A stretch of DNA of 64,000 nt from Fructilactobacillus sanfranciscensis DSM 20451 (GTDB lineage Bacteria; Bacillota; Bacilli; Lactobacillales; Lactobacillaceae), in contig NZ_AYYM01000002.1 in assembly GCF_001436035.1 (NCBI RefSeq), positions 1 to 64,000 on the forward strand, given 5' to 3'. Made by a program: the position numbers and the translations under genes. Of the stretch, positions 22,173 through 26,230 are shown piece by piece. Positions within the stretch are counted from its first letter, which is position 1. Each line of letters starts with the position of its first letter. The notes below the pieces were generated by a model. That model had not been told where the DNA came from, searched no databases, and saw nothing but the letters and a program-made list of their open reading frames with translations.

Positions 22173-23467
22173 ATGCGTGTATTAATGGGAAAAAGTAATA
22201 GTAAAAAAATGAGTGCTAATAAATTAGCGCTTATGATATTATCGTCAATCTTTGGATTTGCTAATGTAACTGTTGCTTATGATCAAATGGGATATGCTAG
22301 TATCATTTGGTATATCTTTGCTGCTTTGGTATTCTTTTTACCAAGTGGTTTGATGTTTGCTGAATATGGATCAGCATTTAGTGAGCAAAAAGGTGGGATT
22401 TATTCATGGTTGAAAAACTCTATCGGCGATCGTTTAGCTTTCATTGGTACTTTTATTTGGTTAGCTGGTTGGGTTATTTGGATGATTTCTGTTGCCATTA
22501 AAGTTTGGATTCCGCTTTCAAATATCTTTTTTTGAACGGATAAAACTAATACTTGGCATTTACTAAGTTTTTTTAATTCCATGCAAACTATTGGAATTTT
22601 GGCAATTACTTGGGTAATTGTGGTTACCTTTTTTGCTGGTCAAGGTTTTAATCAATTGCTAAAGTATCTGGCATTGGGGGGTTCTCGATTATTTTACCAA
22701 TTGCTTTTGTGGCGGTATCGGTTGTTGTATTAATTGTTAATCATGGTCATTTGGCCCGGCCAATTACAGGAATTAACTCTTTCATAAAATCGCCTAACAT
22801 TCAATTTACTAATCCAATTGCCCTAATGTCTTTTATTGTTTATGCAATTTTTGCATATGGTGGAATGGAAACTACAGGTGGAATAGTTAATCAAGTTAAT
22901 AATCCAAAAAAGAATTATCCTCGAGGAATTATTATTGCAGCAATTATAATGACTTTGACATATTCTTTTTCAATCTTCTTTGTTGGTGTAACAACTAACT
23001 GGAATAAAGTCTTGGGGAATGAAAAAGTTAATCTTGGAAATATTACCTATGTATTAGTCAATAATTTAGGGTTTGTTACTGCTAAAACGTTTGGATTATC
23101 GAATGGAATTGCAATTTTATTTGGTGGTTCTGGAACTCAAAAATTTTATTTGATTTTAACTGATATGGGCAACATTTCAAGCGCAGTTTCTTACCTATTT
23201 TTAATCGGGGCATTTCCATTTTTTAAACGTCTTCAAGAAATTGATCGACCATTTGTTTTCTTTAAACCTGGTTGGAAAACTAACATAACTGTGATTATCA
23301 TGATGTTCATAATTACCTTAGGAATAGGTTTTACTGCTATTCAACCAATTATTTCTAAAGACTTTGAAACAGCTTTTTGGACGATTATTGGTCCTCTATT
23401 TTTTGGTTTGCTTGGTTGGTTATTATATGAAAACGGAATTAGAAATATTAAATTGCTAGAAAAATAA
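22173..23467 (+). pseudogene. yjeM: YjeM-type amino acid permease, multiply disrupted
   Basis: Remains of an APC-superfamily transporter. The first 120 codons (ANKLALMILSSIFGFANVTV, then GGIYSWLKNS) end at TGA 22533-22535, where YjeM proteins have Gly before the Asp/Thr-Asp segment. The frame continues after the stop through HLLSFFNSMQTIGIL to FNQ at about 22655. There one base is missing from CAA-ATT and the coding sense moves to another frame (IAKVSGIGG, then AVSVVVLIVNHGH) up to LLEK and the stop at 23465-23467. Compared with my memory of E. coli YjeM, about 65 residues are also absent in frame near 23.11-23.13 kb, between LSNGIAI and FGGSGTQ. Three separate lesions make function very unlikely. 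Confidence 0.88.
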
Positions 23468-23951: not shown

Positions 23952-23979
23952 ATTATAACATATAATAATTCTAAATCAA
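23952..23979 (-). promoter_or_regulatory. Promoter of rplS
   Basis: On the minus strand TTGATT (23974-23979) and TATAAT (23952-23957) are spaced by 16 bases. The -35 overlaps the 3' end of trmD. The -10 is a perfect consensus. Confidence 0.65.
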
Positions 23980-24735
23980 ATTATTATTTTTTTCTTCCTC
24001 AATTCGCACTTCAGCTAGTAACCGTTTAGCATCTTTAGATAATTTGCTATGATCAATCATTTCTGGTCGCTTAAGATATGTTTTTCGTAAAGACTCTTTT
24101 AAACGCCAATCAGCTATTTTTTGATGATCTCCACTTAAGAGTATCTTAGGAACCTTTTGCCCCCTAAAATCGGCTGGACGTGTGTATTGTGGGTATTCCA
24201 ATAATCCATCAGAGAAAGAATCTCCAGGAGCAGATTGCGCGTTACCTAAAACACCAGGAATTAAACGTGAAACTGCATCAATCATTACTAAAGCTGGTAA
24301 TTCACCACCAGTTAAAACAAAATTGCCTATTGAATATTCATCAGTCACAATTGATTTAATTCTTTCATCAAAACCTTCATAATGACCACAAATAAAAGTA
24401 AGATGTTCTTCTTTAGCTAATTCTTCTGCTATGTGTTGATTAAACTGTTTACCAGCTGGGTCAGTTAAAATAACTCGTCCCTTAGGAATTCCATTTTTTT
24501 TAGCAATTTTTTGAGTTTGTTGAAATGCATCGACAATTGGCTGAGGCTGAAGTAACATTCCCGCTCCACCACCATAAATTGTATCATCAACATTATGATG
24601 TTTATCAGTAGAATAATCTCTGAAGTTTGTAATTGAAACGTCTAATAAGCCACGATCAATTGCCTTACCAATTATTGAATCACTCAAAGGTCCCTCCAAA
24701 ATACGAGGAAATAAACTTAAAATATCAACTTTCAT
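23971..24735 (-). CDS. trmD: tRNA (guanine-N1)-methyltransferase
   Basis: Methylates G37 of tRNAs with GG at positions 36-37, preventing frameshifting. The protein of 254 residues has the SPOUT trefoil-knot motifs [16 protein letters not shown] near 56, [11 protein letters not shown] near 112 and [20 protein letters not shown] near 132-150. I chose ATG 24735 ([10 protein letters not shown]) rather than an upstream TTG, since the family starts there. rimM ends two bases ahead, the standard Firmicutes rimM-trmD-rplS order. Confidence 0.96.
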
Positions 24736-24736
24736 A

Positions 24737-25252
24737 TTACTCAAGCCCTTCTAATACATCAACAATTATTTTATGATTTTTTAAATCAACATTTTTAATA
24801 ACATCATCAATTTTTGGCAACAATAAATCAGGCTGATTATTACGCTTAACAACCCATACATCATTTGGACCTAATTCCATAATATCTTTTACTGTTCCAA
24901 CTAACTCGCCATTTTCTTTAAAAACATCTAAACCAATAATTTCGTGATAAAAATAAGTATCAGGATCTAATTCTAAATTTTCTTGTTGTTCCCTAGTAAT
25001 TTTTAATATTGATGGTTTCAAGAATGTAACATCATTAATTGAGTCTAAACCCTTAAAATGTATAAGAACAAAGTTTTTGTGTTTACGTTTTCCGTCAACT
25101 TCTAATTCAACAGTTTTTCCATCCTTTAAAAAAGCGGTAACTTTTTCTCCTTTTTTAAAACGTTGATCAGGAAAATCAGTAATCGGTTGAACTCGTAATT
25201 CGCCTTTTAATCCCTGTGTATTCACGATTTTTCCTACATCAAAGTATTCCAT
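24737..25252 (-). CDS. rimM: Ribosome maturation factor RimM (intact copy)
   Basis: RimM binds S19 and assists assembly of the 30S head. The 171-residue protein has the N-terminal barrel ([20 protein letters not shown] onward) and a C-terminal PRC-like barrel ([33 protein letters not shown]). It is full length and is the last of four tandem copies of its own 5' end. The start has AGAGGTG six bases upstream. It is followed directly by trmD. Because the array separates it from khpA and rpsP, its expression may differ from that in relatives. Confidence 0.95.
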
Positions 25253-25280
25253 TATTCACCTCTAATTAAAAAAGAAACCC

Positions 25281-25475
25281 TTACATAAGAACAAAGTTTT
25301 TGTGTTTACGTTTTCCGTCAACTTCTAATTCAACAGTTTTTCCATCCTTTAAAAAAGCGGTAACTTTTTCTCCTTTTTTAAAACGTTGATCAGGAAAATC
25401 AGTAATCGGTTGAACTCGTAATTCGCCTTTTAATCCCTGTGTATTCACGATTTTTCCTACATCAAAGTATTCCAT
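25281..25475 (-). pseudogene. rimM: Truncated rimM copy (third in transcription order)
   Basis: 64 codons identical to the start of the intact gene, with the same RBS and ATG. The frame ends in KHKNFVLM and a TAA taken from the terminator sequence (ATGTAAGGG). The peptide would be an incomplete N-terminal barrel without the PRC domain. It lies 28 bases upstream of the intact rimM start. Confidence 0.93.
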
Positions 25476-25503
25476 TATTCACCTCTAATTAAAAAAGAAA
25501 CCC

Positions 25504-25698
25504 TTACATAAGAACAAAGTTTTTGTGTTTACGTTTTCCGTCAACTTCTAATTCAACAGTTTTTCCATCCTTTAAAAAAGCGGTAACTTTTTCTCCTTTT
25601 TTAAAACGTTGATCAGGAAAATCAGTAATCGGTTGAACTCGTAATTCGCCTTTTAATCCCTGTGTATTCACGATTTTTCCTACATCAAAGTATTCCAT
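25504..25698 (-). pseudogene. rimM: Truncated rimM copy (second in transcription order)
   Basis: Same 64-codon fragment as its neighbours, same RBS, same chimeric end (Met then TAA). No base differences seen relative to the other copies. It can be translated in principle, but no function is apparent for a half barrel. Confidence 0.93.
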
Positions 25699-25726
25699 TA
25701 TTCACCTCTAATTAAAAAAGAAACCC

Positions 25727-25921
25727 TTACATAAGAACAAAGTTTTTGTGTTTACGTTTTCCGTCAACTTCTAATTCAACAGTTTTTCCATCCTTTAAAA
25801 AAGCGGTAACTTTTTCTCCTTTTTTAAAACGTTGATCAGGAAAATCAGTAATCGGTTGAACTCGTAATTCGCCTTTTAATCCCTGTGTATTCACGATTTT
25901 TCCTACATCAAAGTATTCCAT
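25727..25921 (-). pseudogene. rimM: Truncated rimM copy (first in transcription order)
   Basis: The copy nearest khpA and directly downstream of the complete terminator hairpin at 25940-25985. Its upstream 18 bases are the original rimM 5' flank, so this copy occupies the ancestral start position. The body is identical to the other two fragments. Confidence 0.93.
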
Positions 25922-25936
25922 TATTCACCTCTAATT

Positions 25937-25985
25937 AAAAAAGAAACCCTTACATAAAAACAAAGTTTTATATAAGGGTTTCTTT
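25937..25985 (-). terminator. Terminator between khpA and the rimM array
   Basis: On the minus strand a 13-bp stem (AAAGAAACCCTTA / TAAGGGTTTCTTT) continues, after one mismatch, with six further pairs and a short loop, then TTTAATTAG. The 5' arm begins at the khpA stop codon. The T-tract is short, so some read-through into rimM-trmD is likely. One arm of this hairpin was copied into every repeat unit; the complete hairpin exists only here. Confidence 0.75.
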
Positions 25986-26230
25986 TATTTACCACCATCA
26001 ATAATAAGTTTAACCCTTTTATTGTCAGTAACATGTACACTATAAATAATAGTGCGAATTGTTTGCGCAACTCTGCCACGTTTACCAATCACTCGTCCAA
26101 CATCTTTTGGATTAGTTGATAAGATGTATTCGTGAAATTCAGAAGTCTCTTGATGATTGATTTTGACATCATCTGGGAACTTAACTAATGGTTTAATGAT
26201 TTTTTTTATTAAATTATCAAAATTAATCAT
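25985..26230 (-). CDS. khpA: KH-domain RNA-binding protein KhpA
   Basis: A small single-KH protein that in streptococci and lactobacilli pairs with KhpB/Jag and binds many RNAs, influencing cell division and elongation. The 81-residue protein has the GxxG loop as GKRG (near 51) within DVGRVIGKRGRVAQTIRTI. It follows rpsP by eight bases, as in most Firmicutes (ylqC position). Confidence 0.92.
   Translation of the reverse strand: MINFDNLIKKIIKPLVKFPDDVKINHQETSEFHEYILSTNPKDVGRVIGKRGRVAQTIRTIIYSVHVTDNKRVKLIIDGGK

Follow-up and report, generated by a model that had tools for sequence, protein, structure and literature searches.

The start of rimM in Fructilactobacillus sanfranciscensis DSM 20451 lies in an array of four identical 223-bp units, and this array is most likely a recent and harmless accident of DNA copying that involved two short, similar stretches, not a working device. 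In our judgment, a spontaneous tandem duplication and amplification without a selected function is the highly probable origin of the array, with its neutrality argued from anatomy. We analyzed the array within the first 64,000 positions of contig G000:C12, which we refer to as the window. The features of the region are as follows.

23971-24744, minus strand: trmD, downstream neighbor (ORF and domain match)
24737-25252, minus strand: intact rimM, 171 aa (ORF; Pfam PF01782, PF05239, and PF24986; NCBIfam TIGR02273)
25062-25077, minus strand: short repeat, rimM copy, sense AAAACTTTGTTCTTAT, codons 59-64
25062-25953, minus strand: four-unit array (units 25062-25284, 25285-25507, 25508-25730, and 25731-25953)
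25278-25304, no strand assigned: novel junction, with identical junctions at 25501-25527 and 25724-25750
25281-25475, minus strand: truncated rimM copy, most downstream and closest to intact rimM, 64 aa (ORF)
25504-25698, minus strand: truncated rimM copy, middle, 64 aa (ORF)
25727-25921, minus strand: truncated rimM copy, most upstream, 64 aa (ORF; Pfam RimM N-terminal domain, positions 2-58 of 84)
25940-25985, minus strand: sole complete terminator-like hairpin between khpA and rimM, whose apex holds one short repeat
25954-25969, minus strand: short repeat, terminator copy, sense AAAACTTTGTTTTTAT
25985-26230, minus strand: khpA (ylqC), a KH-domain gene, upstream neighbor (ORF and domain match)

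The initial annotation had described four identical 223-bp tandem units at 25062-25953, with three truncated rimM genes ahead of the intact one. Both descriptions were borne out, the first by Tandem Repeats Finder (TRF) and unit comparison and the second by ORF positions on the minus strand. TRF reported a 223-bp array at 25062-25969 in the window, with 4.1 copies, 99% matches, and 0% indels. The units were letter-for-letter identical to one another (one distinct 223-mer, four matches at 100%) and arranged head to tail, as in an amplification array. Across the assembly (1,231,754 bp in 68 contigs), the unit matched four times, each time within the array. Gene order on the minus strand is rpsP, khpA, the terminator-like hairpin, three 64-aa rimM starts, intact rimM, trmD, and rplS. 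In the sense direction, each unit runs from the 3′ arm of the terminator through a Shine-Dalgarno-like AGAGGTG and an ATG to rimM codon 64. The only known RNA elements detected in the window were a tRNA and an L21 leader at 57 kb, with none at the array.

A near-direct repeat of 16 nt, consisting of 11 exact positions, one mismatch, and 4 exact positions, is located at both ends of the array, which read on the plus strand ATAAGAACAAAGTTTT on the rimM side and ATAAAAACAAAGTTTT on the terminator side. As in a duplication, a direct repeat is present at both endpoints and is kept at the junction. The 27-base junction occurred three times in the window and 0 times in 100 shuffles, with up to 3 mismatches allowed. 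All three junctions carry the rimM base at the mismatch position followed by terminator sequence, indicating that the switch took place within the shared TTAT or that the mismatch was resolved in favor of the rimM base. In the window outside the array, 35 exact runs of at least 11 nt at spacings of 100-500 bp were counted among 24,994,330 position pairs. When the 110 nt upstream of rimM were compared with the first 300 nt of rimM, the best match score was 13, a value reached by 1 of 200 shuffles. None of nine congeners had a comparable near-repeat, with best scores of 7-10 versus 13 here.

We propose that the array arose in two steps. Slippage in replication or recombination between the short repeats would first have duplicated the 223-bp segment once, perhaps with help from the hairpin, and exchange between the new 223-bp repeats would then have expanded the array to about four units, with the short ORFs as by-products of duplication. 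Such an array would be tolerated because its downstream end retains one full rimM, ribosome-binding site included, and because the putative operon promoter is presumably upstream of the array. The locus offers a clean snapshot of the birth of a small tandem array in a housekeeping operon, and both the short parental repeats and the base at the junction can still be read in it.

Both proposed steps have parallels in experimental reports. Confirmed spontaneous duplications in Salmonella have direct repeats at their endpoints, with a deduced repeat cut-off of 11 bp or more and five of eight tested duplications verified (PMC3411829). The rimM array resembles these short-homology duplications in its endpoint direct repeats of at least 11 bp, but differs in that the segment is only 223 bp, contains the 5′ end of one gene, and was assembled as four units. 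In E. coli, an existing 7-kb duplication expanded in a RecA-dependent manner under selection (PMC2656507). The likeness here is a duplication growing into an array of like units, whereas the rimM unit is 223 bp with no evident selection; the second step is therefore an extrapolation to 223 bp from a 7-kb unit under selection. Among the 8-15 best-ranked titles and abstract openings on each of tandem duplication, amplification, microhomology and palindromes, and partial gene duplication (out of 116, 573, 21, and 99 papers, respectively), none concerned a rimM array. We regard the array as a new case of tandem duplication through short homology, followed by amplification. Its place at the start of rimM is unusual, and its kind is ordinary.

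Because the 68-contig assembly looks like a short-read product, it is uncertain that there are exactly four units. The junction could be real while the true number of units is fewer than four, or more than four and collapsed, a possibility that we consider to have an appreciable but minority chance of being correct. Besides the fragmentation of the assembly, several sampled contigs have common end sequences by eye, like short reads breaking at repeats, and a review cautions that reads shorter than a repeat can lead to a wrong count of its copies (PMC6868369). Arguing against such an error, the array is internal to a 148,852-bp contig, on which a near-perfect array of 33 bp × 14.6 was assembled too. 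An error of this kind is compatible with duplication and amplification in every respect except the number. A pure artefact, in which the genome has a single rimM and library chimeras produced the junction, is very unlikely: random chimeras would seldom enter a consensus, the 11 common bases should be too short for a k-mer misjoin, and the junction bears a short-homology signature. The genome probably does contain at least one duplication junction.

The initial annotation had called for a search of related genomes, and this search found a second rimM match in none of the 392 other genomes with a match. In the survey of the family (E of 0.001 or less, with the matches column read by eye), 393 of 397 genomes, including that of DSM 20451, had a rimM match, and the four without one are uninformative. 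DSM 20451 had four matches and the other 392 genomes had one each; the other genomes of the genus examined also had one match each (9/9). A widespread rimM array was rejected on the basis that no second match occurred elsewhere at E of 0.001 or less. This absence is not absolute because draft assemblies, which can collapse identical units, may hide identical arrays, and rimM fragments of distant relatives might score below detection. The zero divergence of the units and the single rimM in 9/9 and 392/392 genomes are consistent with the suggestion that the amplification is recent or that exchange is ongoing, but identity alone is not decisive and does not date the event, since recent origin, ongoing exchange, and assembler copying would each give identical units.

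A search of 497,682 of the 1,231,754 bases of DSM 20451 gave no other array with a period above 50 bp, indicating that the rimM array is not part of a general pattern in this genome. One congener, sampled over 400,000 bases, does have arrays with a period above 50 bp, and these are diverged (70-90% matches).

The three truncated 64-aa ORFs are identical to one another. Each was described in the initial annotation as a 64-residue RimM fragment with its own start and a terminator-derived stop. The start and the stop, a TAA supplied by the 3′ arm of the terminator, were confirmed, but only 63 residues are native and residue 64 is a Met created at the junction (ATG in place of the ATA that encodes Ile64 in intact rimM). 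A truncated copy covers positions 2-58 of 84 in PF01782 and scored 54.6 bits against the Pfam cut-off of 23.5, yet it fell short of RimM membership, with 44.7 bits against the TIGR02273 cut-off of 66.2 and no PRC domain. Intact rimM passed the same cut-off with 154.2 bits and has both the N-terminal domain and the C-terminal PRC barrel. The array shows how annotation can acquire three spurious short genes.

We considered whether the 64-residue fragments could serve as decoys in ribosome assembly or regulate it, which we regard as very improbable. Each fragment has its own start and Shine-Dalgarno-like sequence and scores above the Pfam threshold for the N-terminal domain of RimM, a domain that partly resembles the RNA-binding KH domain (PMC8073977), and by this analogy the fragment may bind RNA. 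In that study, it was the C-terminal domain of RimM from M. tuberculosis and T. thermophilus that bound S19, and an NMR titration showed no binding of S19 to the N-terminal domain (PMC8073977). The predicted structure of full-length RimM (mean pLDDT of 90.3) ends its N-terminal domain with a strand at residues 61-66, a helix at 72-78, and a strand at 81-86. The fragment stops within the first of these strands and is without the helix, the last strand, and the whole C-terminal domain. Because the domain that binds S19 is absent from the fragment, an S19 decoy is unlikely, and the decoy role suggested in the initial annotation is not supported for a fragment whose N-terminal domain also breaks off within a predicted strand.

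The initial annotation had placed half of a terminator in every unit. All four units do carry the 3′ arm, but the most upstream unit alone adjoins a complete hairpin; only one complete hairpin exists because the 5′ arm adjoins that unit only, and the other three units carry only the 3′ arm. Several complete terminators within the array were thereby ruled out. The same scan found 8 terminator-like sites where 2.2 were expected. No promoter-like site was found on the sense strand inside the array, which is weak evidence because the scan gave no excess over shuffles (22 sites versus a mean of 22.9), and a promoter of another type may exist inside the unit. The nearest sense-strand promoter-like site in this chance-level scan is at 26028-26001, inside khpA and upstream of the hairpin.

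A terminator-like hairpin between khpA and rimM was also present in 9/9 congeners examined. Its recurrence suggests possible attenuation inside the rpsP-rimM-trmD-rplS operon. With the hairpin in all nine congeners and the near-repeat in none, the hairpin is common and probably old, and the near-repeat is seen in this species only.

An alternative with a selected function is that the array tunes rimM-trmD-rplS expression through leader length, extra ribosome loading, re-initiation, or release of a ribosome-binding site from the hairpin, which we regard as improbable. In folding calculations over three contexts, the stretch running from the binding site through the start codon had a higher mean probability of being unpaired in the intact gene than in the hairpin-adjacent copy (0.64/0.51, 0.63/0.59, and 0.63/0.55, respectively), and each fragment stop lies 28 nt ahead of the next start codon. 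However, this difference in openness is small, and the start codon alone was not less open in the hairpin-adjacent copy than in the intact gene in two of the three contexts (0.62/0.61 and 0.71/0.61). Moreover, unpaired values were equal for copies 2 and 3 and the intact gene, indicating that further units add nothing via hairpin release. The array also has no second complete terminator and no promoter-like site, the latter by a chance-level scan. Tuning of rimM-trmD output, as the initial annotation had envisaged, is not supported for an array that lies downstream of the sole complete hairpin and leaves the ribosome-binding site and frame of rimM unchanged. Still more doubtful is a leader of variable copy number, in which units would add a ribosome-loading site and a free half-terminator and cells would differ in RimM-TrmD-L19 output and growth rate.

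Phase-variable contingency loci likewise contain identical tandem repeat units that could change in number. Unlike at such loci, a change in the number of units in the rimM array would not shift the functional gene into another reading frame: whatever that number, intact rimM has a start codon, ribosome-binding site, and frame of its own. In-frame fusion of units was rejected, as units are unable to fuse in frame because 223 is not a multiple of three (3 × 74 + 1). If the unit number is variable, the array would be convenient for tracking the rate of recombination in a lactobacillus with a small genome.

Other features of the contig and genome were observed apart from the array. The near-perfect 33-bp × 14.6 array on the same contig, at about 120295-120777, lies inside a 397-aa ORF and encodes the 11-residue repeat ETAQPAAPVQK; by eye, we recognized a signal-like start, an NlpC/P60-like stretch, and an LPxTG-like end in this ORF. 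The GC content of DSM 20451 was about 32% in the window and 34-35% in the sampled rest of the genome, and that of one genome placed in the same genus was 44% (400 kb sampled). The sign of the GC skew turns negative near 24 kb, after positive values, and remains so as far as the contig end, where the gene strand switches too. A dif-like pattern had 0 matches in the window with 3 mismatches allowed. Finally, a gene for a YjeM-type amino-acid transporter at 22173-23467 on the plus strand appears broken into separate reading frames. The ORF at 22173-22535 matches positions 3-116 of NF011775, a 500-position NCBIfam model, and the ORF at 22709-23467 matches positions 178-313 (the best stretch of two), both below the 400-bit cut-off.
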